Assembly: GCF_013410875.1 (NCBI RefSeq)
Contig: NZ_JACCCU010000004.1
Location: 1-64,000 of the forward strand
Direction: 5' to 3'
DNA from: Tunturiibacter empetritectus
GTDB taxonomy: Bacteria > Acidobacteriota > Terriglobia > Terriglobales > Acidobacteriaceae
Length of the DNA stretch: 64,000 nucleotides
A program made the position numbers and the translations under genes. Positions 6,811-22,541 of the stretch are shown here, piece after piece; the first letter of the stretch is position 1, and every line of letters begins with the position of its first letter. The notes under the pieces were generated by a model. That model was given only the letters and a program-made list of their open reading frames with translations. It was not told the DNA's origin and made no database searches.

Positions 6811-7492
6811 GCTTATCTCCGTGACGACTAGTGACGTGACAAGAAGCTTCCAGGCAGACAGGTGCGCCTTACGCAGAAGGGTGGGTGGATGGTGGCCACT
6901 TTCGACTCCTGCGCTGGTTTTCTGCTAAGAACTTCCTGAGGCGAGAACTATGTTGGTACTGCTAGGACTCCGAAGAGACCAGGAACTCTCGTGACGCTCT
7001 CATCAGGCCTGCATCTTCGCTGATAGAGAATGGAACTGCATGAGAGAGTTATTGGCCTCCTTTGCTCCTCACTAGCATCACTTAGCCGAGGCTTCTCATC
7101 CATAGTCCAAAGGTGGCAGCATAAACCCCGCAAAATGCAGGCATTTTTACCCAAAACATGGAAATGTTTCCAGCTACTGACACAGAAGTGTCAGAGGCGC
7201 GAAGCCATGGACGCCAGTGTTGGTCTGCGGAATGCCATCGAAGCTTTGAGCGGCCCGGGTTTTTGTTAGAACCTGCAACGTAGTCCCCGGAGATCCGTTG
7301 GAGATTTGTCGCAAGACTGCGCGGTCGCATCTGTATTAGAGAGCCAAAAAATCTAACTGCGTCCGACAGATGAGCGCTTAAAAGTCCACGGCTCTTCCGG
7401 GGCCGGTTCTAGCGGCTTCCTTATCAGCGATCCCAATTGTCGCTGGCCGAGATCTCGTGATTCTTTGTGGCCGTTTTCAGCGTCTTTGGTAT
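6811..7492. other. Intergenic region upstream of the giant repeat gene; no gene recognised
   Basis: About 680 bp lie between the start of the giant gene and the end of the dehydrogenase gene. No frame gives a recognisable protein. Two short perfect inverted repeats lie close together: AAACAT/ATGTTT around a GGAA loop near 7154-7169, and CTGACAC (7177-7183)/GTGTCAG (7188-7194) around AGAA. They could be an operator or part of an untranslated leader, but they are too short to assign. Confidence 0.4.
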
Positions 7493-8392
7493 CTATGTCT
7501 TGGGACGGCTTGCCACTGTGGTGCCTGTGATGTCTTCCAGCAGCCGGATGGAGCCGCAGATGTCGTCCTCGCCGAAGCCCTTGGCGATTGCGGCGCGATA
7601 GAGCTGCCGCGAGAGCGAGGTCAAGGGCGCCGGGACGTTGAGCTCAGCCGCAGACTCCAGCATCAGCTCCATATCTTTCTCGAGCCACTTGACGGAGAAG
7701 TTGGTGGTGAAGTTTCTGGCGAAGACCATAGGGGCTTTTGCGGTGAGCAGGCCAGATTTAGCCGCGCTGTTGTTAAGGATATCGAGCATCATCTCGGGAT
7801 CGACGCCGGCTTTTGTGCTCAGGACGATGCTCTCATTGAAGGCCTGGAGCAGGTTGCCAAGGATCATATTTTGCGACAGCTTGGCGTGAAGTCCCATGCC
7901 TGCTTCTCCGCAGTAGTACAAAAGCTTTCCCATCACCTCAAAGTACGGGCGGACTTTTTCGAAGATATCCTTTGGCCCACCGACCATAAAAGTCAGTGTG
8001 CCCCCTTCTGCTCCGGCTTTGGAGCCGGTACAGGGCGCGTCGAGAAAGCTGATGTCCTTTTTGGCCAGTTCGGCGGCGATAGCGCGGCTTGCAGAGGGGG
8101 CAATGGTGCTGCAGTCGACGATGATCGACCTGGCGGCTGCTCCTTCGGCCAGACCATCTGCGCCGAGGATGACACTGCGGGACATCTCGGTATCGCCTAC
8201 GCAGAGGAAGGTACAGTCGCTCTGGCGCGCAACGTCGGCCGGAGTGGAGCATGCGATGCCGCCTTTGTTAACCAAAGCAGCAACTTTTCCCTCGCTGAAC
8301 GACCAAAGAGCCACCTGATGATCGGCCTCGATCAGACGAAGAGCCATTGGGCCACCCATAATCCCCAATCCTAAAAAGCCAAGCTTTGCCAT
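7493..8392 (-). CDS. NAD(P)-dependent beta-hydroxyacid dehydrogenase (3-hydroxyisobutyrate dehydrogenase / GLYR family)
   Basis: The 299-residue length fits the family. The N-terminal Rossmann motif GLGIMG is at residues 8-13. The substrate signature DAPCTGSKAGAEGG (118-131) corresponds to the family DAPVSGG motif. The catalytic lysine is K171 in HAKLSQN. The C-terminal all-helical domain contains the usual FSVKWLEKDMEL segment. Family members oxidise 3-hydroxyisobutyrate, tartronate semialdehyde, succinic semialdehyde or related short beta-hydroxyacids in the cytoplasm; the substrate cannot be told from sequence. It stands alone, with about 100 bp to the next minus-strand gene and no obvious operon partner. 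Confidence 0.88.
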   Translation of the reverse strand: MAKLGFLGLGIMGGPMALRLIEADHQVALWSFSEGKVAALVNKGGIACSTPADVARQSDCTFLCVGDTEMSRSVILGADGLAEGAAARSIIVDCSTIAPSASRAIAAELAKKDISFLDAPCTGSKAGAEGGTLTFMVGGPKDIFEKVRPYFEVMGKLLYYCGEAGMGLHAKLSQNMILGNLLQAFNESIVLSTKAGVDPEMMLDILNNSAAKSGLLTAKAPMVFARNFTTNFSVKWLEKDMELMLESAAELNVPAPLTSLSRQLYRAAIAKGFGEDDICGSIRLLEDITGTTVASRPKT

Positions 8393-8504
8393 TTGTGTTG
8401 GACTCCCTTTAAACGATGTTAGAAGTGAAAGGCGCAGGTGTACAGGAGCGCTATCAAGCCACGAAGGCGGCTAGCAGCACGCGGCTCCCAAGTTTCAACT
8501 CGCT

Positions 8505-9002
8505 TTAGTCGAACGACTCCCAGGCGCGAAGTGCGTGTTCAAAAAGTTCCATATTGACGAGTTTGCCGCGGAACTTGACGCCTTCCATCTTCAATCGCGC
8601 TCGCTGTTCGATTGCGGGTTCCCCGCGAAGTTTGATCTCACCGCCAGCGCCGAGCACTCGGTGCCATGGAAGATGATCTGGCGGATCGGTGCGCAGGAGT
8701 CTTGCCACAGCGCGATGGTAGAGCGGATAGCCAGCCGCTGCCGCAACCTGTCCGTAGGTGCTGACCTTTCCTGCAGGAATGGAAAGAATGATGCGACGAA
8801 ATGCTGTGTCACGGAGTTCGTTCGCACGAGCCCCATCCCGTAGAATTCTGCGTTTCGCCTGGGATGTGGGGACAGTCGGGATAGCCCCTGGAAAGGGAGG
8901 ACGAACGGGCTTGTCATTCTTCCTTCGCGTGCTCATCGTCATCCGGTCTTCTAAAGCTCTCTCTGACTTTTGCCTGCTCTGGAAATCAGAGTTCGGGATC
9001 AT
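8505..9002 (-). CDS. Alkyltransferase-like (ATL) DNA damage-recognition protein
   Basis: The C-terminal half matches the DNA-binding domain of O6-methylguanine-DNA methyltransferases: RRIILSIPAGKVSTYGQVA, then the active-site region PWHRVLGAGGEI. The acceptor cysteine of the PCHRV motif is replaced by tryptophan, as in the alkyltransferase-like proteins (for example E. coli YbaZ/eAtl), which bind alkylated guanines without repairing them and hand them to nucleotide excision repair. The 165 residues include a basic, low-complexity N-terminal extension of about 60 residues. The start is uncertain: ATG 9002 has a weak GAGAT site, and the MTM pair at 8942/8936 is an alternative. No operon partner. 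Confidence 0.85.
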   Translation of the reverse strand: MIPNSDFQSRQKSERALEDRMTMSTRRKNDKPVRPPFPGAIPTVPTSQAKRRILRDGARANELRDTAFRRIILSIPAGKVSTYGQVAAAAGYPLYHRAVARLLRTDPPDHLPWHRVLGAGGEIKLRGEPAIEQRARLKMEGVKFRGKLVNMELFEHALRAWESFD

Positions 9003-9341
9003 GATATCTCGTTCGTCATTAGTTCAAACTGCATGAGCGCTCCGCGAAGGAGAAGATGCACCCGTTCGAGATAATGGCGGCTAGCTAGAACGGCGGAGAG
9101 CCGCTACTAAGGAAGGCGAACTCATTCGTCTTTCGTCCGGAACCATGATCACCCAGACGTATCTGGACCCGTCTAAGACCAGTGAGCCGAGAGACTTAGG
9201 TAAAGACGGACCAACCGAGAGATACTGCGACCGTGCACGGGGATTCTCATCTGACTAAGTGCACTATCTTTCAACCTTATTTCGGTTAGGCTTGGATCAA
9301 CAAGAGGAAAGTCAGTTCGTTGAATGGAGCCTTAGCTTTTC

Positions 9342-10580
9342 GTGGTCGCCTTCCTTAGTCGCATCTTTCGAGCGTTTCGGTACCGTGATTTTCGGATCAT
9401 GTGGCTGGGAGCGTGTGTTTCCACCATTGGGACCTTTGTGCAGCAGTTCGCGCAAAGCTGGCTTGTCTATGACCTGACCAAAGACCCTTTTTACCTTGGG
9501 CTCGATCTCTTTCTGGGACAACTGCCGATTATGCTCTTTTCTCTTGTCGGTGGTGTTTTTGCGGACCGTTTGGATCGAAAGAAGATGCTGCTCTCTTCGC
9601 AGTACATCCAGATGATCTGCGCCTTCGTGCTGGCAACATTATTCGCTACCCATGCGGTCAAGGTCTGGCACATCCTGACCTTGTCTTTCGTCGTTGGGGT
9701 TGGGCAATCGTTTGGCGGACCCGCCTATTCAGCCCTGTTGCCCACGCTGGTGGAACCTGAAGACCTTGCCAATGCAATTTCGATGAATTCAATTCAGTTT
9801 AACCTTGCGCGCATTATTGGTCCGACCCTTGGAGGTCTCGCGTATACCGTCTTCGGCGCGACGTGGTGTTTTGCACTGAACGGCTTCTCCTATGTCGCGG
9901 TCATCATTTCACTCTTTGTGATCAGGGCGCAGTTCGTTGCACCCAAGACTCAGATGTCCGTTTTGAAGAGCATGAAGGAGGGAATCACCTTCATCAGAGA
10001 TCGTGAAGGTTTGACTCCGCTCGTCGTGCTGGCGTTTTGCACAACCCTGTTTGGCTTTTCTCTGACTGGATTTCTTCCTGTGATTGTACGGACGATCTTT
10101 CACAGAGGTCCAGGAACCTATGAGCTTTTGCTGGTTTTCTCAGGTGCTGGATCGATCTGTGGAGCGCTATTGGTCGCGGCGATGGAGAAGTTGAAAGGAC
10201 AGGGTCGTATGGCAGTGCTCGCCTTGTTCGCACTTGGGCTTACGACGGCTGGATTCGCATTCTCGAAGTGGCTCCCGATCTCCTGCATTCTGATTTTTCT
10301 TGCCGGCATGGCCGTAATGGCGTCCGCTTCTCTTATGTTGTCGGTGGTGCAACTTATTGTGGTTGACTCAATGCGAGGGAGGGTGATGAGCGTCTACAAC
10401 CTGGCATTTCGCGCTGGAATACCGCTAGGGGCGCTGATTCTAGGGAAGTTGATTCCGATTCTCGGCATTTCGACCGCTGTTGCGGGATTCGGATTGTCTC
10501 TTGTGGGTGTTGCGGGTTATTTCCTAATCGTCATGACCAAGGCGCCTACCTTTCAGCGGCAGGTCAAGTCAGGTGTGTGA
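9342..10580 (+). CDS. MFS transporter of the transmembrane secretion effector (MFS_3 / EntS-like) type
   Basis: A 412-residue integral membrane protein with about 12 hydrophobic segments. The N-terminus FRAFRYRDFRIMWLG and the loop GGVFADRLDRKKML are typical of the MFS_3 group, which includes the enterobactin exporter EntS. Such proteins export siderophores or other small molecules; the substrate is unknown. An in-frame TAG at 9333 means translation must start at GTG 9342 or further in; GGAG at 9326-9329 is about 12 bases upstream of the GTG. The gene converges on the P450 gene, with 49 bp between them. Confidence 0.88.
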   Translation: MVAFLSRIFRAFRYRDFRIMWLGACVSTIGTFVQQFAQSWLVYDLTKDPFYLGLDLFLGQLPIMLFSLVGGVFADRLDRKKMLLSSQYIQMICAFVLATLFATHAVKVWHILTLSFVVGVGQSFGGPAYSALLPTLVEPEDLANAISMNSIQFNLARIIGPTLGGLAYTVFGATWCFALNGFSYVAVIISLFVIRAQFVAPKTQMSVLKSMKEGITFIRDREGLTPLVVLAFCTTLFGFSLTGFLPVIVRTIFHRGPGTYELLLVFSGAGSICGALLVAAMEKLKGQGRMAVLALFALGLTTAGFAFSKWLPISCILIFLAGMAVMASASLMLSVVQLIVVDSMRGRVMSVYNLAFRAGIPLGALILGKLIPILGISTAVAGFGLSLVGVAGYFLIVMTKAPTFQRQVKSGV

Positions 10581-10629
10581 CACGGGTAGACGCCAAGGAA
10601 TGCTTGCAGTAATAGATTGACGCCGGACT

Positions 10630-12000
10630 TTATTTTGATACCGGGACTTCGCGTGCGACTGCCTTGGTGAAGGTCATGCGGATTCCGTGCTTGGGACGCA
10701 GGATGACCATTGGACGCGCTTCGATCGTCTGGTCCGGGACCAGCTGAAAATCGTAGGTTCTGAGGAGTTCGCTCAGAATCATGAGAATCTGCAGCATGGC
10801 ATAGTGATTGCCAATGCAGACCCGGGGTCCACCTCCGAAAGGCAGGTAGGTGAATGGCGTTCGCAACTTCTCATTTGCTTTGAGGAAACGCTCCGGGTCG
10901 AAGCTCTCCGGGCTTGGCCAGTAGTGGGGCGTATGGTGCGCGCCGTAGACGAACACAATGACAGTCGATCCTTGAGGAATGGCGATGTCGCCTACGCGGT
11001 CGTCCGCGATAGCCATGCGATCGACCATCCAGAACGGTGGGTAGAGTCGGAGCGCCTCGTAGATGACCTGAGTCGTGAACTCGAGCCTGGTGACGTCGCC
11101 GAAGCTCAGAGACGCATCGCCCAAGACGGAATCGAACTCCTGACGTACTCGCTCGAGAGTATCCGGACGCGAGCTTAGAAGATAGAGAAGCCACGATAGA
11201 GCATTCGACGAGGTTTCATGGCCGGCAACTAGAAGTTGCATGCTCTCGCTCAGAACCATCTCGTCGCTCATGCCTTCGCCATCACTGTAGCGAGCGTCCA
11301 TCAAGGTCTGCAGCAGATCGTTGCCGGGTGCCTGCTGGCGACGTGTCTTGATGTAGTCCATCAGAATGGCGTCGGCGTGGGTCCGCATCTCTTCGTGTCT
11401 GCGGAGTTCGCCGGAGACCTCAAACCAGGGATTCAGGTAGGGCTGAATGGTCTGCCTAACGATAAATTCCTGGACGGTGCAGATGGTATGGCTTACGGTG
11501 TCGATGTCTTCGTCCTTCAGCTTGGCGCCAAAGAGCGAACGGGCGACCATGGCGAAGGTCATCTTCATCAGATGGGGGTAGATATCGACAGGGCCGAGCT
11601 GGATTTGCCGGTTGAAGTCCAGCATCGACTCGGCGAGGGAGTCCTGCATGATCGCGGACAGGGCCTCAAGCTGCTTTCGGTCAAAACCTTTCTGAATGAG
11701 ACGCCGCTGTGTGCGCCAGGGGTCCCCGTGGGTGGTGAGAAGACCCTTGCCAAGGAAGTGGCCCATCCGCTTTACTTGAATTTCGGACTTCTGATAATTT
11801 TCCGAGTTGGTCTTCAATACATGCTGCATGACGGCGGGATTGGTCGTAACGATGGCCTCTTTAATGCCGCCTAAATAGAAGCGAAACGTGTCGCCGAAGA
11901 GTTCGGTGTACTTTGACAAGACCTGCACAGGATTGGCGGCCATGGCACGCGAATCTGCGAAAGAGCGAAGTCGTGAGACAGCAGGTATGGGTGTGGGCAA
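10630..12000 (-). CDS. Cytochrome P450 monooxygenase
   Basis: A 456-residue soluble-type P450. The oxygen-activation motif AGHETS is at 259-264 in the I-helix, the ExxR motif EALR at 315-318, the PERF region (DPERF) at 368-372, and the heme-binding loop FGGGPRVCIG at 388-397 with C395 as thiolate ligand. It resembles the CYP4/CYP102-like fatty acid hydroxylase branch, but the substrate is not settled by sequence. The assigned start is TTG 12000 because no ATG precedes the conserved N-terminus; ATG 11943 would cut into it. The gene lies 103 bp downstream of the desaturase gene on the same strand, probably co-transcribed, and is divergent from the acyl-AMP ligase/ACP/reductase gene, suggesting a tailoring oxidation of a fatty acyl substrate. 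Confidence 0.92.
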   Translation of the reverse strand: MPTPIPAVSRLRSFADSRAMAANPVQVLSKYTELFGDTFRFYLGGIKEAIVTTNPAVMQHVLKTNSENYQKSEIQVKRMGHFLGKGLLTTHGDPWRTQRRLIQKGFDRKQLEALSAIMQDSLAESMLDFNRQIQLGPVDIYPHLMKMTFAMVARSLFGAKLKDEDIDTVSHTICTVQEFIVRQTIQPYLNPWFEVSGELRRHEEMRTHADAILMDYIKTRRQQAPGNDLLQTLMDARYSDGEGMSDEMVLSESMQLLVAGHETSSNALSWLLYLLSSRPDTLERVRQEFDSVLGDASLSFGDVTRLEFTTQVIYEALRLYPPFWMVDRMAIADDRVGDIAIPQGSTVIVFVYGAHHTPHYWPSPESFDPERFLKANEKLRTPFTYLPFGGGPRVCIGNHYAMLQILMILSELLRTYDFQLVPDQTIEARPMVILRPKHGIRMTFTKAVAREVPVSK

Positions 12001-12103
12001 CGTTACGTCTCGCTTCCGAGGTGCTTCAGGAGAACAGTAGGAGATCTCATGTGGTTTGTCTGAAGTAGTGGGCCTGGTTAGTTCCAGGCGAGGACCGAGG
12101 CGG

Positions 12104-13240
12104 TCACCCTTCGGTTCCCAGTTGCTTCAAAAGTATCAGATGATGCCAGACTGCACGAGTCATCGTGGGATGTTGCCGGTAGGGAACGCCAAACTCTTCC
12201 GCGGTTTCTTTCACAATTTGGGTGAGCGGTGCGTAGTGGGTGTGGCAGACGAAAGGACATAGATGATGTGCAATGTGATGATTGAGGCCGCCCGTGAGCC
12301 AGCCGACGATCGGATTGCTGGTCGCATAATCGGCCGTTGTCGCGAAGATGTGATAGACGCCGTTGTCGAACTCACTGCGGTCCGAGGGAAAGTAAGTGCT
12401 GTCAATGGTGTGGGTTGTCTGGAATACCAGGGATACGGTCAAACCGATGATCAGATGGACCAGCACAAACGATCCGGCGACCAACCAAGGCGATTTTCCC
12501 ATCAGCAGCACCGGCAAGATGAGCATGTAAGTGAAGTAGAACGCCTTGCCTGCAAAGAGGATGGTGTACTCGCGGTTGGGATGGTTGATGCGTCTCAGGT
12601 AGTCGTGGGTAGGTAAGAAGAACGCCTCAAAGTCCCTGACGAAGACGTAATCGAGAGAGAACATCGCGTAGAAGAACAGCGCATAGATGTGTTGGAACCG
12701 ATGCCAGCGTGCGCGGGGCTCGTGGGGCGTGAACCGAAAGATGCCACGTCCCGTAAGAGCATCGTCTTCACCATGGAGATTGATGCAGGAGTGGTGGCCT
12801 CGATGATGGAGGATGCGCCACATGTATGAGTTGATTCCGCAGACATCGAAGACGTAGTTCAGGCTTTTGTTGATGGACGATACAGACGAGATGGCGTTGT
12901 GGTTGCTGTCGTGGGCGATGTTCAGCAAAAGGAATGCCTGGGCAAGACCGCTCAAAACGTAAAGAGCGACGAACTTCCATGAATCCGGCTTGAACGCATA
13001 GAGAGCAATCCATGCGCCCACGAGCACTGCCAGCCCCGCGGCGATCTTGGTCCACATGGTGAGGTCGGCTTTGGGCGAAAGATTCTGATCGGCAAAGAAC
13101 TTGTCGAGGCGACGGCGTAGAACTTTTGGGAAAGAAGACGGGCCGGTCGCGCCGACGGACTGCCGTGCCGAAGCCTCAGAAGGTACCAGATCATCTATAT
13201 CGGGCTTTAGGGTGATTACCGCTTCGATTTCAGACGTCAC
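12104..13240 (-). CDS. Membrane fatty acid desaturase (acyl-CoA/acyl-lipid FADS type)
   Basis: A 378-residue membrane diiron desaturase with the three histidine boxes: HDSNH (110-114), HHRGHH (145-150) and HHIAHH (321-326). Hydrophobic segments lie around 64-83, 87-108, 186-203 and 228-275. There is no cytochrome b5 domain. Family members insert double bonds into acyl-CoA, acyl-lipid or acyl-ACP substrates, and relatives in terminal alkyne pathways (JamB type) make alkenes and alkynes on ACP. Translation most likely starts at GTG 13240, with GGAGG five bases upstream. First gene of a probable desaturase-P450 operon, divergent from the ligase/ACP/reductase gene across 419 bp, which suggests it modifies the acyl chain that the ligase activates. 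Confidence 0.9.
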   Translation of the reverse strand: MTSEIEAVITLKPDIDDLVPSEASARQSVGATGPSSFPKVLRRRLDKFFADQNLSPKADLTMWTKIAAGLAVLVGAWIALYAFKPDSWKFVALYVLSGLAQAFLLLNIAHDSNHNAISSVSSINKSLNYVFDVCGINSYMWRILHHRGHHSCINLHGEDDALTGRGIFRFTPHEPRARWHRFQHIYALFFYAMFSLDYVFVRDFEAFFLPTHDYLRRINHPNREYTILFAGKAFYFTYMLILPVLLMGKSPWLVAGSFVLVHLIIGLTVSLVFQTTHTIDSTYFPSDRSEFDNGVYHIFATTADYATSNPIVGWLTGGLNHHIAHHLCPFVCHTHYAPLTQIVKETAEEFGVPYRQHPTMTRAVWHHLILLKQLGTEG

Positions 13241-13659
13241 CGGAGCCTCCGCATCTTATTAAGTCGGCCCGGCGCACCCCGGTCGGTCGCATCAGCGGAC
13301 CAGGCCAGCAGCGTATCTGTGGCATCTGGTACACCATCTTCTGCGTCAACATCTCATGGTAACGCGAGGATTTATTGAGAATCAAGGAAATTCGGATTAG
13401 GCGAGGGGAGCTTATGACGGCTCGTGCTGAAAGTGGAGATCCATTGGATTGGGTCATTGCTCTGCTAACATAAACCGATCGACCGATGAATCGGCACAGA
13501 ATCTTTTAGGCCTTCCATTGTCACACTCGGCCTACACTGTAATTTCATATTCCGAGACTCAGTTGCATCACCTGACCAGGATACTGGCACGCCGTAACAT
13601 GTTTCGTGTTTTTCGTACTGAGTTTTGCTATTCAACCTCGGGGGTATTGCTGATTTATT
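13241..13659. promoter_or_regulatory. Divergent promoter region between desaturase-P450 and FAAL-ACP-reductase genes
   Basis: A 419-bp non-coding stretch from which both lipid transcription units must start. No regulator gene or clear operator was recognised. One TGGCACG match near 13584 lacks a proper TTGC partner, so it is not a sigma-54 promoter. The stretch 13490-13600 is relatively AT-rich, as expected of a promoter. Confidence 0.5.
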
Positions 13660-16600
13660 ATGGCGTCGATTTTAGACCAACTGGATAGGCTGGGAGAGCA
13701 ACACCCGCACAAACTCCTTTATTCGTATCTTGACCTGAACGGCAATACACTCGAATGCTATTCCTACGCGTCGTTTCTTAAACGGACGAAGGCCATAGCC
13801 GGTCACTTGCTAAAGGATGGTTGTTTCGCGGCGGAGGACCGGGTTCTGCTCGCTTATCCGCCGGGGCTTGAGATGATCTGCGCGTTTTTTGGTTGTGTGC
13901 GTGCGGGATTGATCCCTGTGCCCGTCTACCCTCCGAGTTCTCGTGGCTTCCAGAGCGCTCTGTACAAGATGGTCCACATCGCGAAAGATTGTCAGGCGTC
14001 CGGGATTTTGACCAGCGCAGACTACCATGCGTCTTTGAAGACAAATCTCACTCGAAGTGGAGTCTCGGCGTCGGGCGTAGACGTCGACTACATCTCCGGT
14101 CTTCCTTGGATTGTCACGGAAAAGTTCGTGGATCCGATTTCGGACGAACTTTTTTTCGGCACTTCAAAGATATTGTTTCTCCAGTACACGTCGGGATCGA
14201 CGATGGATCCCAAGGGTGTAATGGTGACGCACGAAAACATCCTGCAGACCTGTCCTCTTGTGATCGACCATCCTGACCCGGTCGTCGTATCCTGGCTCCC
14301 GCAGTATCACGATATGGGGTTGATTGGGTGCTACCTTTATCCCGCCCTGAGAGGCGGTACAACGTACGGCTTCTCTTCCATGGACTTCATCCAGCGGCCG
14401 ATTCTGTGGTTTGACACGATAACAACCTATCGTGCTACCGCGACGGCAGCCCCCAACTTCGCCTACGACTATTGCCTGCGCGCTGGGAGGTTGTCCAAGG
14501 AGAGCCTGGAAGGCTGCGATCTCAGCTCCCTGCGGGTGTTGATGTGCGCTGCGGAACCGGTAAAACCGGATACGTTCACACGGTTTCTGGAGAAGTTTCA
14601 GAGTTGCGGACTAAAGTCGGAGAGCTTTTATGCCGCTTTCGGGCTGGCTGAAAATACTCTTGCCGTTTCACTCGGCGGCCGCAATATTGTGTCCGTTAAT
14701 AAGCGTGCCCTCGCGTTGGGGAAGGCGCGTATGACGACGGAGGTCTCCGAAATCGACGGGGCTACTCAGATTGTCAGCTGCGGAACTCCGCTCGCGGGTA
14801 TAGACGTTAAGATCGTGGACCCGGAACAACACGTCGCTTTAGATTTAGGCCACATCGGTGAGATCTGGATTGCGGGAAGCGGCAAGTGTCTGGGTTACTG
14901 GAATAATCCGGAGCTTACGCTGAAGCAGTTCCGTGCACGGCTGGTGGACGATAGTCCCTATGACGATGGCTATCTTCGGACTGGCGATATGGGGTTTTTC
15001 CATGACGGCGAACTCTACGTGTGCGGTCGCATCAAGGACATGATTATCCTGCGCGGGCAGAACTATTATCCGCAGGATATCGAGAACGTCGTAGAGAGAG
15101 CGTCCGGGATAATCCGGAATAATTGCGTGGCTGCGTTCCAGATTCATGAAGACAGTGAACCGGCGCTGGCAATCGTGGCAGAAGTGAAGAACCCTAAGAT
15201 TCTTCCGGATGCGCGAAAGATAGCCGCCGCAATTCGGAGTTATCTGAACGTAGAAGTGGCATTGATCACCTTCATCGCTCCTCGAGCGATCCCGCGAACT
15301 AGTTCGGGCAAGATCATGCGTCATAAGACCAAGCACATGTGGCTGGAAGGCGAGTTTACTGTTCTCTCCGAGTTTTCGCGGGAGAAAGACGCCGGGTGCT
15401 CTGAGTCTGATTCTGATGTGAAGTCGTCTTTCGACGAGTTGAAGGCCCGGTACAACCTGACGGGCATGGAAACGTACAACCTGGTGGAAGCGGGACTGGA
15501 TTCGCTGGATCTTGTCGTCTTCATGCATGAGCTGAAGGAGCTTTTGAAGGAAAAAGGCGCGGACATGCTGGCGCGTCAGGTCGATATCGGTGTCATTCAG
15601 CAGGTCAGCGTAGCCGATTTGTTTCAACTGGCGCAACAGTTGGAGCATGCACCTGAAGAAGCATTGGTTCAGCTGCGTCATTCCATTGGGGCTTTCCGAG
15701 ATGAGCAGCGCAGAGCGGAAAAAGAGATGATGAGCAACGATAGAAATCTCATCTTCGCACCTCCGGTACCTGCACCTTTGCCTGAGCTTCCAGTCCCGAA
15801 TCATGTCCTGCTGACGGGTGGCACCGGTTTCATCGGACCGTTCCTGATGAAGAGCCTGCTGGAACAGACGCGGGCGAAGATCTACGTTCTCGTCAGGGCT
15901 TCCGACGACGATCAGGGCAGGCAGAGGCTGCGAGCGGCGATGGAGTCGATGGGGCCTTGCCCGGCAAGGCTGATGCAGATGTTTGAGGCTCGCGTTATTC
16001 CCATCTGCGGCGATCTTGGGCAGCCAATGTTGGGCCTGACGCAGGACGTCTGGGATTTTCTCGCAAGTGAAATGGACACCGTGTTTCACAATGGCGCGAC
16101 CGTAAACTACTTATTCAACTACGACCGCATGCGTGACGCGAACGTGATGGGGACCAACGAGGTCTTGAGGCTGGCATTTGAGGGACGGTCCAAGGAATTC
16201 AATTACGTCTCGACTACCTTCGTGTTCGGATGGGCTGTCAAATCGGTTTTGTACGAGACCGATTTCAACAAGAATATGGAGCTTCTCGACTTCGGATACA
16301 GCCAGTCCAAATGGGTTGCTGAACAAGTGGTTGCAGATGCCCGTAACCGAGGGCTCTCCACTCGGATCTTCCGCCCCGCTCTGGTGAGTCCCTCGGTTAC
16401 GGGCGGAGGCAACAACTTTGATATTGCCGTTCGTCTGGTAGCGTTCATGGTGAATCACGGTATAGGAGTCGATGCTCTAAACCAAGTTAGTTTTGTTCCT
16501 GCGGACATCGTGGCGAACAATATCGTTGCCATCTCCACTACTCCCGGCACGGCGAATAAGACCTATCACGTGGTGCGGGACGATTATGCGAACATGCTGG

Positions 16601-16956
16601 ATATTACGGGGCTCATTACCAAATCGACCGGGCGGCAATTCGAAATATTCAGCATTTCGGAGTTTGTTCCCGAACTGATCCGAAGATGCCGTAAGGAAGA
16701 CCTACTCTTTCCTCTGCTGGATTTTCTGGTGGGCTCGGTGGACAACATCTCGGCGATGGAGTTCAAACGGTATGACAGTTCTACTTATCAAGAGGCTCGC
16801 GATGCCTCTACATGGGGCATCGCCGATCCTTCGCTTGAGGATACGGTCGACGGCATTTTGAAATTCATGCACCGCAAGGGGATTATTTCGGTTGCGGCTC
16901 GTGAGTCTAGTACTGTTCCATCGCTCGCCGAGCCTCTTGCCTTCACGGATGCATAG
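13660..16956 (+). CDS. Single-chain fatty acyl-AMP ligase - acyl carrier protein - thioester reductase
   Basis: The 1098-residue protein has three domains. (1) An adenylation domain (about 1-575) of the FAAL class: P-loop YTSGSTMDPKGV (176-187), LRVLMCAAEPV followed by FGLAENTLAVS, and GQNYYPQDIENVV. (2) A carrier domain (about 585-680) with the phosphopantetheine serine S615 in GLDSLD. (3) A thioester reductase of the extended SDR type (about 710-1075): TGGTGFIG at 719-726, VSTTFVFG, and the catalytic pair Y880/K884 in YSQSK. By analogy with carboxylic acid reductases it should activate a fatty acid with ATP, load it on its own carrier domain and release it reductively with NADPH as an aldehyde, or as an alcohol after two rounds. 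ATG 13660 has only a weak ribosome site. The divergent desaturase and P450 are likely tailoring enzymes. The stop lies 3 bp from the end of the convergent next gene. Confidence 0.92.
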   Translation: MASILDQLDRLGEQHPHKLLYSYLDLNGNTLECYSYASFLKRTKAIAGHLLKDGCFAAEDRVLLAYPPGLEMICAFFGCVRAGLIPVPVYPPSSRGFQSALYKMVHIAKDCQASGILTSADYHASLKTNLTRSGVSASGVDVDYISGLPWIVTEKFVDPISDELFFGTSKILFLQYTSGSTMDPKGVMVTHENILQTCPLVIDHPDPVVVSWLPQYHDMGLIGCYLYPALRGGTTYGFSSMDFIQRPILWFDTITTYRATATAAPNFAYDYCLRAGRLSKESLEGCDLSSLRVLMCAAEPVKPDTFTRFLEKFQSCGLKSESFYAAFGLAENTLAVSLGGRNIVSVNKRALALGKARMTTEVSEIDGATQIVSCGTPLAGIDVKIVDPEQHVALDLGHIGEIWIAGSGKCLGYWNNPELTLKQFRARLVDDSPYDDGYLRTGDMGFFHDGELYVCGRIKDMIILRGQNYYPQDIENVVERASGIIRNNCVAAFQIHEDSEPALAIVAEVKNPKILPDARKIAAAIRSYLNVEVALITFIAPRAIPRTSSGKIMRHKTKHMWLEGEFTVLSEFSREKDAGCSESDSDVKSSFDELKARYNLTGMETYNLVEAGLDSLDLVVFMHELKELLKEKGADMLARQVDIGVIQQVSVADLFQLAQQLEHAPEEALVQLRHSIGAFRDEQRRAEKEMMSNDRNLIFAPPVPAPLPELPVPNHVLLTGGTGFIGPFLMKSLLEQTRAKIYVLVRASDDDQGRQRLRAAMESMGPCPARLMQMFEARVIPICGDLGQPMLGLTQDVWDFLASEMDTVFHNGATVNYLFNYDRMRDANVMGTNEVLRLAFEGRSKEFNYVSTTFVFGWAVKSVLYETDFNKNMELLDFGYSQSKWVAEQVVADARNRGLSTRIFRPALVSPSVTGGGNNFDIAVRLVAFMVNHGIGVDALNQVSFVPADIVANNIVAISTTPGTANKTYHVVRDDYANMLDITGLITKSTGRQFEIFSISEFVPELIRRCRKEDLLFPLLDFLVGSVDNISAMEFKRYDSSTYQEARDASTWGIADPSLEDTVDGILKFMHRKGIISVAARESSTVPSLAEPLAFTDA

Positions 16957-16959
16957 TCG

Positions 16960-17724
16960 CTATTGCTTTTTGAACACCAGCTTCTCGGTTAGGTGCTGGC
17001 CTGTCTCCAATGTCCCTGTGGTGGTTAGCGTCATCTGCTGACCATCCGCGGAGACCACCCACCGGTCCTTTTGAGTCACTTGATCGTCTCGCCGGTAAAT
17101 TGAATCTACTGTGTGTGGATCGATAAGCTGAAGCATGATGGAGTCGTTGCGGGAGTTCGCAAGAACATACTGCTTTCCGTCGAAACGGGCGGTGTAGCTG
17201 AACTCACCTGAAAAACGAACCCCACCGTTTCCGTCTGTTTCAATCTTGAGCGCCAAGCCTTGTCTCAAACGGGTCTTACTGAGATCCTGGGTCCACTCGC
17301 CGGCGAGAAGGTCCCCGGCAGTTTTTTTGCCTCCGCTTCGCGTCCACAAGGTGATCTGGTCGGCGTGGCCAGCGCTCGTAGTCGTGATCGTTAGCTCATT
17401 CCCATCTTTCGAGAGCTTTTCGCGAACCGTTGCCACGACAGCTCCATCTTTTTTTTCCTTAACCTCGGCCTGCTTTTTGTCGATCCTGCGCAATTCGACT
17501 TGATTGAACGCCAGATTGCCTGGAACTGGCGTCTCATGTCCGTCTGACTTGGCAGTGAAATCGAGGTGGGTTTCGCCGGTCATCACTACGTGCACTGCGT
17601 TATGTAGAGCCGTGACGGAGAGTTTGTTGGGAGGATTCAGGCTCGACTGCGCAGAAAAGAGCGTCCAGGAGCCAAGACGTGGATCGGCGGTTCCAGGTTG
17701 AAAGGCGGCAAGTAGTGCGAGCAA
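16960..17724 (-). CDS. Exported beta-rich protein of unknown function (two lipocalin-like repeats)
   Basis: About 254 residues, nearly all predicted beta-strand. Two similar halves each begin with a G-x-W motif (LGSWTLFSAQSSLNPP and LAGEWTQDLSKTRLRQG), a pattern common in small acidobacterial exported proteins. The function is not known. The start is odd: no ATG exists in frame. TTG 17724 begins inside a hydrophobic stretch. Extending to ATT 17739 gives LKFALLALLAAFQPGTA, a proper signal peptide, with GGAGGA (17743-17748) three bases upstream and an in-frame TGA just before it. A rare ATT start or a mutated ATG is therefore likely. It sits between the reductase and the MmpL transporter genes, suggesting an envelope or lipid-carrier role (inference). 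Confidence 0.75.
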   Translation of the reverse strand: MLALLAAFQPGTADPRLGSWTLFSAQSSLNPPNKLSVTALHNAVHVVMTGETHLDFTAKSDGHETPVPGNLAFNQVELRRIDKKQAEVKEKKDGAVVATVREKLSKDGNELTITTTSAGHADQITLWTRSGGKKTAGDLLAGEWTQDLSKTRLRQGLALKIETDGNGGVRFSGEFSYTARFDGKQYVLANSRNDSIMLQLIDPHTVDSIYRRDDQVTQKDRWVVSADGQQMTLTTTGTLETGQHLTEKLVFKKQ

Positions 17725-17827
17725 CGCGAATTTAAGAATTGATCCTCCTCATCAGACGGAACCAATTTAGCAGATTCAGAGAGCCGGGCAGGCTACCCAT
17801 CGGGTACCTGTTCGACCTCCGATCTGT

Positions 17828-20119
17828 TTGATGCAGGCAAAGAATGGCATATTTGCCCCTGCTCGCAATTATTTGTATGACATCATGGGTCTCATGCATG
17901 TGCGCCGTTTCTGGGTAGCCGGAGTGATCCTTATCGCTGTCGTTGCCCTTCTTCCATTCTCTTTTCATTCTGAGCGTCATCTGGAGACGGCAACCCGCGT
18001 TGAAGGTAGCGAAGCGGAGACTGTCCGTCAGGAGCTTGTCAGTCGCTTTCATTCGCCATTTGTGGATCGCGTGGTCCTGGTCGTTCAGGGACTGCCTCCC
18101 GCCGATTCGGTGGAGGGTGAGCAGGCGTTAGCAACTATTGTGGCGGGTCTGAGAGAAGAACCTGGCGTGTCTGGCGTCGTCTCTCATCTCGACCTTCGCG
18201 ATCCTGTCTTTGTGGGCAAGGGCGGTGGAACGTTTGTCCTGGTGGGCCTGTCGTCGACCGGGGGGCCGGTGGAGTTGCTGGTCCCTAAGCTTCACGAGCG
18301 GATAAACACTCTCGCCAATCAATTGCGAGGCCGCTATCCTGCAGTCAAGATCGAACTGACGGGCGAGATTCCACTTAACTTTGACATCCGGAAAGCGAGC
18401 GCGGACGATGTACGGCACGGCGAAAGCCTGGTGATTCCTGCGACCCTTGTACTTTTGCTGGTGGCTTTCGGCAGTCTGGTCGCTGCTGTAATTCCGTTGG
18501 CCGTTGGTCAGCTTGCCATCGCAGCCACCCTGGCAATTACAGGGTTGCTGGCCCACCGCTTCCACTTGTCGATTCTGGTTCAAAATCTGGCTACCATGCT
18601 TGGATTAGGCTTAGGAATCGATTATGCGCTCCTGATGGTCAGCCGCTTCCGGGAAGCGATCTCCGCTGGCCACGAGGGATCTGTAGCCTCCGTCATGGCG
18701 GCACGTCAGGCCGGTCATACGCTTTTGATTTCAGCATCGACAGTAGCAATCGGCTTTTTAGCACTGTTGACGGTTCCCATCAGCGAGATCCGCTCCATCG
18801 GCGTCGCGGGATTTTTGGTAGCAGGGATCAGCGTGTTGCTTACCAATACTCTGGTTCCGGCCGTGCTGGGGTTGCTCGGCCCGCGGATTGATGCTGGCCG
18901 AATGCCGTTTACTCCGAAACTGGATGCGCAGCGGGCCGCACATACGGGAAACCGCTGGAGGAGATGGGGAAAGGTGATTGTTGCCCACCCGTTGCTTGCC
19001 CTGTTTCTTGCAGGCACCCCTCTGCTTCTGCTTGCATGGCAAGCAACGCATCTTGATACAAGTGTCCCCAAAGGGGATTGGCTTCCGGAGTCCGCGGAAT
19101 CAGTGCATGCGCTGCATACCCTTGAACAGATGGATCGGGCTGGCGTGGTGTATTCACTTCGCGTCATTGTCCAACTGCCAGCGGATTCGATTGCGCAAAC
19201 CGACGCGGGATGGAACGCGCTCGATCGCCTCAGCAAGCGCATCGCGAGCGATCCTCGTTGTGCAAGAGTCATATCAATCATAACAATTGCGGAGGGTAAC
19301 CGTGCCTCGCTCACAGACATCTCGCGGGAGACGCGGCGCACGTTTCTGAGTAGTGACGGACACGAGGCGCTGCTTGAGGTACTACCCGCGACTTCGGTCT
19401 CATTGCGGGATCAAGTCGACTGGGTTCGTGAACTCCGCAAGACCGGCGCGGCAACTCTTACCGGTGTGCCCGGAGCAACGCTGCAGATTGGTGGTATTCC
19501 GGCACTCAACGCCGACTATCAGACGATTGTTACGAAGCATTTTGTGCCGGTAGTGGCGATGGTGGTGGTGGCCACGCTTCTGGCGCTTCTGGTCGGGTTC
19601 CGATCGCTCTTCGCCGCGGTGAAGGCAATCGTATTGAACCTGCTCTCGGTTGCGGCATCCTTTGGAGCCTTGGTCTTAATCTTTCAAGATGGGCACGGGA
19701 GTAGCCTGCTGGGAGTACCTGGGGGAACGGGCAGCGTATTCCCCCTTGTTCCTATCGTTGCCTTTGCCATCGTCTTCGGCCTAAGCATGGACTACGAAGT
19801 GTTCCTGGTCGCGCGAGTTCTTGAGGCCAGGAGGAGCGGGCTAAGTGAAGTGGATGCAATTCCGGAGGGGATGGCCAGGACTGCGGGTCTGATTACGAGC
19901 GCCGCAGCGATCATGATCGTGGTGTTCGCGGCATTCACCTTCGGCAACTTCCTGGTGGTCAAGATGATTGGATTTACGCTTGCAATCGCCGTGCTGATTG
20001 ACGCGACACTGGTGCGTATTGTGATCGGTCCCGCACTCCTTCGCATTGCCGGCGATTGGAACTGGTGGCCTGGCGGACTTGCCGCGCCACGCAAGGCGCC
20101 CGTAGAGAGCTGCGAATGA
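17828..20119 (+). CDS. MmpL-family RND transporter, probable lipid exporter
   Basis: Up to 763 residues with the duplicated RND fold: TM1 at about 26-46, a periplasmic domain to about 205, a bundle of five or six TM segments, a second TM and periplasmic domain from about 375, and a final bundle. The paired motifs GLGIDYALLMVSRFREA and GLSMDYEVFLVARVLE, with the aspartates used for proton coupling, are diagnostic of the MmpL group, which moves lipids and hydrophobic metabolites across the inner membrane. The start is uncertain: TTG 17828, ATG 17831, ATG 17885 and ATG 17897 are all in frame and none has a strong ribosome site; 17885 or 17897 puts TM1 right at the N-terminus. Location beside the acyl-AMP ligase/reductase locus suggests it exports that product. 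Confidence 0.9.
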   Translation: MMQAKNGIFAPARNYLYDIMGLMHVRRFWVAGVILIAVVALLPFSFHSERHLETATRVEGSEAETVRQELVSRFHSPFVDRVVLVVQGLPPADSVEGEQALATIVAGLREEPGVSGVVSHLDLRDPVFVGKGGGTFVLVGLSSTGGPVELLVPKLHERINTLANQLRGRYPAVKIELTGEIPLNFDIRKASADDVRHGESLVIPATLVLLLVAFGSLVAAVIPLAVGQLAIAATLAITGLLAHRFHLSILVQNLATMLGLGLGIDYALLMVSRFREAISAGHEGSVASVMAARQAGHTLLISASTVAIGFLALLTVPISEIRSIGVAGFLVAGISVLLTNTLVPAVLGLLGPRIDAGRMPFTPKLDAQRAAHTGNRWRRWGKVIVAHPLLALFLAGTPLLLLAWQATHLDTSVPKGDWLPESAESVHALHTLEQMDRAGVVYSLRVIVQLPADSIAQTDAGWNALDRLSKRIASDPRCARVISIITIAEGNRASLTDISRETRRTFLSSDGHEALLEVLPATSVSLRDQVDWVRELRKTGAATLTGVPGATLQIGGIPALNADYQTIVTKHFVPVVAMVVVATLLALLVGFRSLFAAVKAIVLNLLSVAASFGALVLIFQDGHGSSLLGVPGGTGSVFPLVPIVAFAIVFGLSMDYEVFLVARVLEARRSGLSEVDAIPEGMARTAGLITSAAAIMIVVFAAFTFGNFLVVKMIGFTLAIAVLIDATLVRIVIGPALLRIAGDWNWWPGGLAAPRKAPVESCE

Positions 20120-20273
20120 TCCGAACGCGTCTCGCCGCCTATCTATATCTTTTCAGGTTCGATCTGAGGACCTCGTTCGATGTCTCTATTGGTCTTGATG
20201 CAGACAGAACTGAATGCTTGCTGCCAATCTCTTCAATCTCGGGTCTGGGCATACGCATAGGCATCCGGTTGAA

Positions 20274-20969
20274 CTATTCTTCACGGAAGCGATAGCCGAT
20301 GTGGCTCTCGGTCAAGATATAAACGGGGTGAGCAGGGTCGTCTTCAATTTTCTTTCGTAGTTGATTGATGACAACGCGTAAATATTCACGCTCGTTGCAG
20401 TAAACCGGTCCCCAAATGGATCGCAGCAGATTTTCGTGCCTGACGGGTCTACCAGCATGCTCCATCAAACAACGGAGGGTCTCGTATTCTTTTGGAGCGA
20501 GATGTATCGGTTCGCCCTTCTTCTCTACGAGGCGGCGATTGGCGTCGAGCGTAATATCACCCACTATGCTGACCAGATCTGGTTCTCCAATCGGGGCATG
20601 GCGGCGCCGAATGACTCCTCGCAGTCTCGCGGTCAGCTCCCGGATCTGAAATGGCTTTGTGACATAGTCGAAAGCGCCCGCGTTTAGCGATTCGACGACA
20701 TCCTCTTCATCGTCACGAACGGTGAGCATAATGATCGGTAGCCCGGGAAAAGTTTGACAGATTCTTCGGCACGTTTCCTTACCGCCCATGCCTGGCATAT
20801 TGATATCGAGGATGACTGCGTCATAGTTCACCATGCGCAGTTGAACGAGGGCATCCTCGCCGTTGTGAGCCTCCCCGATCGCAAATCCTAGCGCCCCCAA
20901 TGTTTCAAACAGGCTCTGGCGGATTCCTGCATCGTCTTCAACGACTAGCACCTTACTCTTCTGGTTCAC
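20274..20969 (-). CDS. KdpE-like OmpR-family response regulator
   Basis: 231 residues. The receiver domain has the acidic pair E11/D12, phosphoacceptor D55 in VILDINMPG and the lysine of VTKPF. The C-terminal winged helix ends with EYLRVVINQLRKKIEDDP and ILTESHIGYRF, closely matching KdpE. KdpE controls the high-affinity potassium pump, but no kdpFABC genes are present here, so the target is open. The ATG overlaps the stop of the kinase gene in the arrangement ATGA (20966-20969), so the two are translationally coupled. It is convergent with the MmpL gene. Confidence 0.9.
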   Translation of the reverse strand: MNQKSKVLVVEDDAGIRQSLFETLGALGFAIGEAHNGEDALVQLRMVNYDAVILDINMPGMGGKETCRRICQTFPGLPIIMLTVRDDEEDVVESLNAGAFDYVTKPFQIRELTARLRGVIRRRHAPIGEPDLVSIVGDITLDANRRLVEKKGEPIHLAPKEYETLRCLMEHAGRPVRHENLLRSIWGPVYCNEREYLRVVINQLRKKIEDDPAHPVYILTESHIGYRFREE

Positions 20970-22411
20970 ACCTTCTCCTTTGCCATGCGAGGTAGCGCGA
21001 TTGCAAACGTAGTTCCATTGATGTAATCACTTTCAACCCATGTTCGGCCGCGATGTGCTTCGGCGATGCGCCTAACTACAGAGAGTCCGATCCCGGTACC
21101 GGAAATTGACTTTACTGATTCGGAACAGCGATAAAAGCGTTGGAATACCTTTTCTCTTTCGTAGTCAGGAATGAACGAGCCTTCATTCCTGATGCTGATG
21201 ATCAGTTCCGCTTCTTCTTCTCGCAGGGCAATGATCACTTGCGACTTAGGACGGCTATACTTTGCCGCGTTGTCGAGGACCTGAAAGAGAGCCATCTGAA
21301 GCAGCTTCCTGTCTGCGTATACTGCGTTGCAGAACGCACTCGACTGAAAGTCGATGGAATGCCCATCAAGCTCTTGCGACGATTCGGCTATGGTGTTTCG
21401 AATCAGTTGAGCCACGTCGACCTGTTCGCGCTTGACCTTCAGATCACCGCTATCCAGTTTCGCGGTCAGGAGGAGATGATTCGCAAGATCGCTAAGGTGC
21501 CCAGCGTGGCGATCGATTAGGCTAACCAATCGTTCTTCGGCACCCGATAACGTATTCATCGCGAGCAAACCCGAGCTTGAGGCTCTGATCGTCGTAAGTG
21601 GACTCTTGAAAGCGTGGGCTAATCCGTCCAATATGGCTGAGCGCAATTGCTCACTTTGTTTTGCAGCTTCTGCATTTGCTTCGGTCGAGAAGGAGCGTGC
21701 CCTTTCGATTGCAACTGCGGCAAGCGAGGAGGCCGCATTGATAGAGGCTGAGTCTAGCGAATGCCCGCAGAGGAAGAGGGATCCTATAGGCCGGGTTCCT
21801 AGTCGAAGGACACGCCGAGAAACACCTGTGATCAAGTCATCGTCATTTGTTTCGAGAAAATAAGCGGAGCGTACCTCGTCATCGGAGAAATCACAATCTC
21901 CACTCTTCCATTGATGCATCTCATAGGCATTCCAAAGGGCTACTCCTTTCACGCGCAGGCTGGACCGCATGAGATCGACGAGCTGCTGATCGACCGCCGC
22001 TTCCCGATTGAGGAGCAAAATATGCTGGCTGAGTTCGTAAAGCTTCTGTTGTTGAGCCTGCCGTCGCTCTAGCTCGCGAGCGTGGTGACTCACTCGGTCT
22101 GAGAGGCTGCTGACGACCAAGGCCGTTGCTTCAAAGACCAGCAGAGCGATCCAGTCGTGCGAATCCGTGATGTAGAACTGGAACAAAGGCTGGGTGAAAA
22201 AGTAGTCGAGGCAGGCAACAGACAGAATTGAAACTACGCTCGCTTCGAATAATCCCCAGCGAAGCGCGATGACGACCACCAAAAAGAGGTGGATGGAGGT
22301 TGCGGCGGAGAGATTAAAGTGAAGGCGGTAGGAGAGAAGCGTCAACAGCATTCCAGCGGCACAGCCGCCGGCAATCCTGCACAGGACCCCCTGGATTGAT
22401 TTGGCAATCAT
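20966..22411 (-). CDS. KdpD-like sensor histidine kinase lacking the KdpD N-terminal domain
   Basis: 481 residues. The N-terminal membrane part, with about four TM segments within 8-105 (RWGLFEASVVSILSVACLDYF), matches the KdpD/DUF4118 membrane domain. A GAF-like region follows (about 130-235). The HisKA domain carries H266 in AHAFKSPLTTI, and the ATPase domain has VLDNAAKYS and GTGIGLSVV. Full KdpD has an N-terminal region of about 350 residues, containing KdpD and Usp domains that sense cyclic-di-AMP and potassium; it is absent here, so the signal must differ or come through the membrane domain. First gene of the kinase-regulator operon, divergent from the TonB receptor gene across 130 bp. 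Confidence 0.9.
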   Translation of the reverse strand: MIAKSIQGVLCRIAGGCAAGMLLTLLSYRLHFNLSAATSIHLFLVVVIALRWGLFEASVVSILSVACLDYFFTQPLFQFYITDSHDWIALLVFEATALVVSSLSDRVSHHARELERRQAQQQKLYELSQHILLLNREAAVDQQLVDLMRSSLRVKGVALWNAYEMHQWKSGDCDFSDDEVRSAYFLETNDDDLITGVSRRVLRLGTRPIGSLFLCGHSLDSASINAASSLAAVAIERARSFSTEANAEAAKQSEQLRSAILDGLAHAFKSPLTTIRASSSGLLAMNTLSGAEERLVSLIDRHAGHLSDLANHLLLTAKLDSGDLKVKREQVDVAQLIRNTIAESSQELDGHSIDFQSSAFCNAVYADRKLLQMALFQVLDNAAKYSRPKSQVIIALREEEAELIISIRNEGSFIPDYEREKVFQRFYRCSESVKSISGTGIGLSVVRRIAEAHRGRTWVESDYINGTTFAIALPRMAKEKV

Positions 22412-22541
22412 TCGGTTGCCCCTGCCGGAACTATAGCGATTCAGGCATAAACAAACCGTTAAGAAGAAGCTTATGCCTTACTAACGTCGGTCACGATTCA
22501 CTGAAGGTGTCGGCCTTTTCCGGCATATGAGGTGATTCGAC

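Follow-up and report, generated by a model that had tools for sequence, protein, structure and literature searches.

A five-gene cassette for probable polyketide-synthase-free fatty-acid tailoring and lipid export in Acidobacteriota

We analyzed a 64,000-nucleotide stretch of DNA from Tunturiibacter empetritectus (positions 1 to 64,000 of contig NZ_JACCCU010000004.1; hereinafter, the window). Five adjacent open reading frames (ORFs) of the window encode, in this order, a cytochrome P450 (minus strand), a membrane fatty-acid desaturase (minus), a fusion of a fatty acyl-AMP ligase (FAAL), a carrier domain, and a thioester reductase (plus; hereinafter, the fused enzyme), a beta-rich protein (minus; hereinafter, beta-protein), and an MmpL-family transporter of the resistance-nodulation-division (RND) type (plus). 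These genes form a true cassette, and their arrangement exceeds chance by far. We consider it probable that the cassette encodes a fatty-acid tailoring pathway that is free of polyketide synthases (PKSs), ends in reductive release, and is coupled to lipid export. A previous sequence-only reading had located the five genes exactly where the ORF list places them and had assigned them to one coherent pathway. The latter claim stands within Acidobacteriota, where both linkage and co-inheritance in 22 genomes agree with it, and needs correction beyond them, as MmpL and beta-protein look like an Acidobacteriota add-on.

Relatives of the fused enzyme with 45–57% identity are found in Bacteroidota, Gemmatimonadota, Planctomycetota, Verrucomicrobiota, and Calditrichota, and records of Edaphobacter, Granulicella, Terracidiphilus, and Bryocella carry the enzyme as well. 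A scan of genome contigs detected 167 relatives, and the loci of the best 80 were sorted by record title, identity, and a 50-row tree into clade A (48 loci; Acidobacteriota and one record titled Verrucomicrobia), clade B (11 loci; Saprospiraceae and their kin), and clade C (20 loci; Flavobacteriales and their kin, Gemmatimonadota, Planctomycetota, Verrucomicrobiota, Calditrichota, and one metagenome-assembled genome of Acidobacteriota), with a single locus (L116) outside all three. Linkage was counted only at loci with enough contig. In clade A, the fused gene is linked to the desaturase in 42/42 loci, to P450 in 37/37, to the beta-protein in 39/40 (the exception is L051), and to MmpL in 35/35, so that across Acidobacteriota a fused enzyme without its partners is not the norm. 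At four of these loci (L069, L046, L067, and L049), the fused gene and the beta-protein gene are separated by 1.2–7.6 kb. In clade B, a linked desaturase was observed in 5/5 loci, and at L088, situated on a shorter contig of this clade, the desaturase, P450, and fused genes are consecutive on one strand. In clade C, P450 is linked in 8/9 loci and a desaturase in 7/9. Neither the beta-protein nor MmpL was observed beside the fused enzyme in clades B (0/5) and C (0/9).

Each of the five proteins was searched for separately in 250 genomes of the family to which the window belongs. Orthologs of the fused enzyme (at least 77% identity) were detected in 22 of them, i.e., the distribution of the cassette is patchy. 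The copies in G002, G036, G206, and G226 are partial or split, and the one in G177 was matched in two pieces. These 22 genomes, and no others, contain orthologs of P450 (at least 71% identity; next best match, 36%) and of the desaturase (at least 69%; next best, 33%). MmpL orthologs (at least 67%) are present in 21 of them, the exception being the fragmented genome G036, and additionally in G116 and G137. Nineteen of the 22 genomes encode the complete beta-protein (at least 55%), which also occurs in G116 and G137; the search did not detect it in the fragmented genomes G002 and G036.

Similarity at the DNA level ends at the borders of the cassette. The window matches two relatives, L158 and L159, from position 10649, at the end of the P450 gene, to approximately 20100–20121, where the MmpL gene ends, and nowhere beyond. 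In a comparison of L053 with L118 (from G116), both flanks match, while the stretch containing the P450, desaturase, and fused genes along with one further gene is absent from L118, which retains the beta-protein and MmpL genes. Hence the biosynthetic genes come or go together, the direction of the event being either way. The divergent intergenic region between the desaturase and fused genes (13241–13659), presumably containing promoters, was aligned for eight loci; an AATCAAG motif and the GCTNTGNTANCAT stretch are kept in all eight and are possibly a promoter or operator.

The fused gene (13660–16956, plus strand) encodes a protein of 1098 amino acids, in which comparisons with Pfam, NCBIfam, and solved structures delineate a fatty acyl-AMP ligase (approximately residues 1–570), a carrier domain with Ser615, and a thioester reductase (approximately residues 714–1037). 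The Pfam matches are AMP-binding (4.9e-61) and NAD_binding_4 (3.1e-60). The best NCBIfam matches of the ligase domain are FAAL models (PRK05850, 332.8 bits, compared with 143.8 bits for the CoA-ligase model PRK06187), with scores below the curated FAAL cut-offs, and the 11 solved sequences matched at E 1e-60 or better are without exception FAALs or acyl-CoA synthases of the FAAL type, with 7r7f and 3kxw as the best. Judging from these sequence matches, the ligase domain resembles FAALs more than it does fatty acyl-CoA ligases. With regard to a FAAL-specific insertion, a comparison confined to FAALs shows that residues 340–400 align through 7r7f and 3kxw with small gaps only. At the C-terminus, the score for the thioester-reductase model TIGR01746 exceeds the cut-off (246.7 bits against 213.35); the nearest solved relative of this reductase is MxaA (4.9e-56). 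The assignment of the acyl carrier protein (ACP) rests on the GLDSLD motif, and Pfam at E 0.001 yielded no match for a carrier domain. In an alignment of 74 fused enzymes, which includes that of the window and excludes sequences shorter than 85% of the full length, the serine of this motif (Ser615) is kept in 74/74 rows, as are Lys551 of the ligase and Tyr880 and Lys884 of the reductase; Thr852 is kept in 73/74. Thus, Pfam, NCBIfam, and conserved residues bear out the domain content given by the sequence-only reading (FAAL, ACP, reductase, desaturase, P450, and MmpL).

Carboxylic acid reductases (CARs) follow the same adenylation-carrier-reductase logic in one chain, and the reductase domain also matches CAR structures (5msc, 2.2e-27), but the adenylation domain of the fused enzyme is FAAL-like rather than CAR-like, and the protein fails the NCBIfam CAR model NF041592 (138.2 bits against a cut-off of 1300). 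Loading of a fused ACP by a FAAL is also known from the FAAL-started olefin synthase and FAAL didomain starters (PMC11837247), and the olefin synthase has a sulfotransferase in common with clade C loci; unlike it, the fused protein has no Pfam match to a ketosynthase or any other PKS domain. The window copy is the only full-length fused enzyme of the host genome, which contains two genes of the phosphopantetheinyl transferase (PPTase) family that could activate the fused ACP. Although 144 plasmid records match the fused enzyme at E 1e-60, none of them (0/144) covers 80% of it in one place.

Under the reading that we favor, the ligase domain would adenylate a free fatty acid and transfer it to the phosphopantetheine arm that Ser615 of the fused ACP carries; the desaturase and the dedicated P450 would add a double bond and oxygen, most simply on the ACP-bound chain; and the C-terminal reductase would use NAD(P)H to release a fatty aldehyde or a primary alcohol. 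In Acidobacteriota, MmpL and the calycin-type carrier would then deliver this product, or a lipid derived from it, to the outer envelope. That the five genes work together is the strongest part of this reading; oxidation on the carrier is a weaker part, and the identity of the product is the weakest. We infer the substrate, the timing of oxidation, the choice between aldehyde and alcohol, the transported molecule, and the order of steps.

The P450 gene (10630–12000, minus strand; TTG start; 456 amino acids as called; Pfam p450, 3.9e-87) encodes the motifs AGHETS, EALR, and FGGGPRVCIG, among them those of the heme site and the I-helix. In a tree of 57 P450s, all 30 proteins encoded adjacent to a fused enzyme form one clade with a single unlinked protein (L132), supported by an SH-aLRT (approximate likelihood-ratio test) value of 100; L132 comes from a Calditrichia genome that also contains a fused enzyme (L099). 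The other 26 unlinked P450s, from Acidobacteriota and Saprospiraceae-type genomes, fall outside this clade. The unlinked proteins are a partial sample picked by hand from the best hits, and both this tree and that of the desaturases result from quick searches without bootstrap. The sampled linked P450s thus share a common ancestry. At least 40% identical P450s occur in 19/24 distant genomes with a fused enzyme, and P450 is the partner whose lineage is kept furthest across phyla. Unlinked P450s of Saprospiraceae were rejected as evidence of co-inheritance: in the Saprospiraceae-type family, 93/170 genomes have a P450 at E 1e-60, and only 5/170 have the fused enzyme. Co-occurrence says little in Saprospiraceae-type genomes, because P450s of 40% identity are common there without the fused enzyme, and only linkage and the tree are informative. 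Oxidation of a carrier-bound chain is suggested by loci (L093, L096, L098, and L105) where P450 is tied to the fused enzyme even though no relative of the window desaturase was detected in the genome.

The desaturase gene (12104–13240, minus strand; GTG start; 378 amino acids; FA_desaturase, 3.7e-27) has kept the histidine-rich motifs HDSNH (110), HHRGHH (145), and HHIAHH (321). In a tree of 51 sequences, the cluster desaturases of clades A and B form one group (98) and those of clade C another (100), not joined with the first; therefore, desaturases joined the fused enzyme at least twice. In this tree, L198 is unreliable owing to its very long branch, and L059 and L063 were left out, as the ORF set did not include their desaturases. 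The cluster desaturases of Flavobacteriales were discarded as orthologs of the window protein, since they constitute a separate lineage and an unlinked desaturase scores better in several genomes. The best structural matches of the predicted desaturase model (mean pLDDT confidence, 78.1) are chains of Orf2971/Ycf2-FtsHi complexes (Z 21.2 and 20.4; the titles do not name the chain), and the named matches include AlkB (Z 12.7) and stearoyl-CoA desaturase (Z 7.2). The specificity of the modeled desaturase cannot be named from its fold.

Several observations weigh against the favored reading. The fused enzyme of L116 (45% identity) has no partner at all; P450 is linked in 0/5 clade B loci; at E 1e-40, no P450 was found in 3/24 distant genomes with a fused enzyme, and two more have distant ones only; and no relative of the window desaturase was detected at E 1e-10 in 6/24 of these genomes. 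As those five clade B loci have no linked P450 and a desaturase relative was not detected in those six genomes, neither oxidation is universal. There is no dedicated redox partner of P450 among the five genes. On the transport side, G116 and G137 contain the MmpL/beta-protein pair without the fused enzyme, the beta-protein of G119 is a 31-residue remnant of a mostly lost gene, and two beta-barrels with a hydrophobic N-terminus are no proof of lipid carriage or export.

The partnerless L116 suits another explanation, in which the fused enzyme does no more than provide wax or ether lipids with their aldehydes or alcohols, and the desaturase and P450 act not on the ACP-bound chain but on other pools, i.e., phospholipids, free acids, or the released alcohol. 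Membrane desaturases of the FA_desaturase family often act on lipids or acyl-CoA, and the fused reductase suffices to make a fatty alcohol. A precedent is ElbD of Myxococcus, which likewise combines a ligase, an ACP, and a domain resembling a fatty acyl reductase in one protein and serves ether lipids (PMC9131029, PMC9426513), although its reductase-like domain is N-terminal, it has an additional acyltransferase domain, and its gene neighbors differ. We regard this explanation as unlikely. The strict co-inheritance of the fused enzyme, P450, and desaturase in 22/22 genomes and the association of a single P450 lineage with the fused enzyme indicate that the three have a substrate or product in common, and no acyltransferase family was matched in the fused protein by Pfam at E 0.001.

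The composition of the trio recalls JamABC and the polyyne clusters (cepacin, caryoynencin, collimonin, ergoyne, and protegencin), where a FAAL, an ACP, and a membrane desaturase acting on the acyl-ACP operate together, and some actinobacterial polyyne clusters contain a P450 as the cassette does (PMC8406139). FAAL, ACP, and a membrane desaturase are indeed encoded together here, with the likeness of the desaturases being that of a shared Pfam family. The comparison with JamABC made by the sequence-only reading holds at best for the functional triad, and it breaks down elsewhere: in the cassette, both ACP and reductase are fused to the FAAL, release is by reductase, no PKS is adjacent, MmpL and a calycin protein are added, and the phyla are different. 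If the desaturase were an acetylenase acting on the ACP-bound chain as in JamABC, the product would be an alkynyl fatty alcohol or aldehyde, which we consider very improbable. In favor of such a product are the triad itself and ten actinobacterial polyyne genomes in which a P450 replaces the thioesterase and rubredoxin genes (PMC8406139). Against it, the cassette has a single desaturase, so that the two further desaturases of polyyne clusters and their thioesterase and rubredoxin genes are not among its five genes, and the JamABC carriers given in the available part of the survey in PMC8406139 include neither Acidobacteriota nor Bacteroidota. The alkyne cassettes outside Proteobacteria reported there belong to Cyanobacteria, Planctomycetes, and Entotheonella. 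Nothing in our analysis supports the formation of a triple bond.

The MmpL gene (17828–20119, plus strand; 763 amino acids; MMPL, 3.8e-74) encodes a protein that passes the Pfam gathering score (250 bits against a cut-off of 20.5). Its nearest solved relatives are MmpL3 structures (1.4e-58), and it lies below the NCBIfam MmpL3 cut-off (253.2 against 1400). A second MmpL group (L119–L122 and L124), 55–60% identical to the window protein, is present in other genomes of the family, where it has other neighbors and where the surrounding stretches covered by the analysis contain no fused enzyme. The beta-protein gene (16960–17724, minus strand; 254 amino acids) matched no Pfam family; its start is uncertain, as the eight codons preceding the called TTG are also open and include no ATG, GTG, or TTG. 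The hydrophobic N-terminus of the protein makes it probably extracytoplasmic or exported. Its predicted model (mean pLDDT, 90.7) is a two-barrel calycin. In a VIA-align search, the 50 matches listed, mostly fatty-acid-binding proteins, have Z of 13.2–14.3 over 107–121 residues, including 8wkh (Z 14.3; root-mean-square deviation, 2.6) and the palmitate-bound myelin P2 protein 2wut (Z 13.7; 2.8), both over 115 residues at 10–12% identity. Foldseek matches of the model are weak (best E 3.8e-4, a DUF3598 protein). As the aligned ranges span the whole protein, the two barrels may share strands. The model suggests that the beta-protein is a candidate lipid carrier.

A transporter acting with an extracytoplasmic protein is known from the mycobacterial export of phthiocerol dimycocerosates (PDIM), which requires both MmpL7, an RND/MmpL transporter, and LppX (PMC11539658). 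In contrast to that system, the cassette has no PKS and no ABC transporter, and its candidate carrier has a predicted calycin fold. We take the likeness as an analogy rather than as homology. The two genes might alternatively be a separate transport unit that merely neighbors the biosynthetic trio in Acidobacteriota, as suggested by G116 and G137, which have them but no fused enzyme, and by clades B and C, where the trio core stands without them at each of the 14 loci with enough contig. However, at clade A loci with enough contig, MmpL is always kept and the beta-protein is missing only once, even across the kilobase-scale inserts, and the pair in G116 may be a remnant after loss of the trio. 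We judge a separate unit to be rather improbable, even more so than a general supply of fatty alcohols.

The functional context of clade C loci, as identified by Pfam in one representative of each partner, includes a PPTase gene in 10 loci, where it immediately precedes the fused gene, a nearby sulfotransferase gene in nine, a second desaturase in 10, and an unnamed membrane protein in 10. The Verrucomicrobiota locus L098 also has both the PPTase and the sulfotransferase, and at L093 and L105 genes of a short-chain dehydrogenase and a flavin monooxygenase are situated upstream. The sulfotransferase would fit a hydroxylated or alcohol product. We tentatively extend the favored reading, with less confidence than we have in its core, to a PKS-free lipid pathway in at least six phyla, in which a dedicated P450 lineage and repeatedly recruited desaturases rewrite a chain held on the ACP. 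The oxygenated, unsaturated alcohol or aldehyde would be sulfated in Flavobacteriales and exported in Acidobacteriota via MmpL and a carrier resembling fatty-acid-binding proteins.

All enzymes of the cassette belong to known types, and we could not find a description of their combination in the literature. Among the papers listed by searches aimed at the cassette, in a literature set mostly devoid of subscription papers and preprints, no published account was detected by title or by the start of the abstract. The main text of a 2025 FAAL review contains neither "P450" nor "Acidobacteri" nor any word starting with "reductase", and the rows of its Table 2 that were consulted include one product from Bacteroidetes (PMC11837247).

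The best-known role of FAALs is to initiate polyketide and peptide assembly lines, and they start PDIM synthesis. In the cassette, no assembly-line element other than the FAAL seems to be present, and its chain would pass to oxidizing enzymes and a reductase. If true, soil Acidobacteria and Bacteroidota would make modified fatty alcohols by a route that depends on acyl-ACP, featuring a P450 lineage for which ACP-bound chains may be the substrate and, outside Actinobacteria, an MmpL transporter with a calycin partner.

The cassette is flanked by a gene of a major facilitator superfamily transporter (9342–10580) and a two-component system (20274–22411). The latter, together with a TonB-dependent-receptor-like gene (20274–26063), was rejected as a part of the cassette, as these genes reside on other contigs in the cassette-bearing genomes G209 and G168, and the histidine kinase/response regulator pair occurs in other genomes of the genus with no cassette gene within 1.5 kb. 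The region 20274–26063 is thus an independent block, which other members of the genus have at sites apart from the cassette.

Further observations concern individual loci. The L079 record titled Verrucomicrobia (Tous-C9LFEB) contains a complete five-gene cassette of the Acidobacteriota type that groups inside clade A, reflecting either transfer or a mislabeled bin. At L049, the insert between the fused and beta-protein genes (6319–13627) encodes an AMP-binding ligase, a small ACP-like protein without a Pfam match, a spermine-synthase-like protein, and an FkbM methyltransferase. At the left end of the window, which is also the start of the contig, an ORF of at least 2270 codons (1–6810, minus strand) runs off the end; it contains many LTVTASSYTIPYGTADPTYTATITGF-like repeats, resembles surface adhesins, and coincides with a GC skew of 0.43 at 1–2000. 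Elsewhere in the host genome (G000:C1:2430042-2440711), AMP-binding matches, one of them within an open frame of 2759 amino acids, adjoin a PPTase-family gene of Sfp size, possibly constituting a cluster of the nonribosomal peptide synthetase type.

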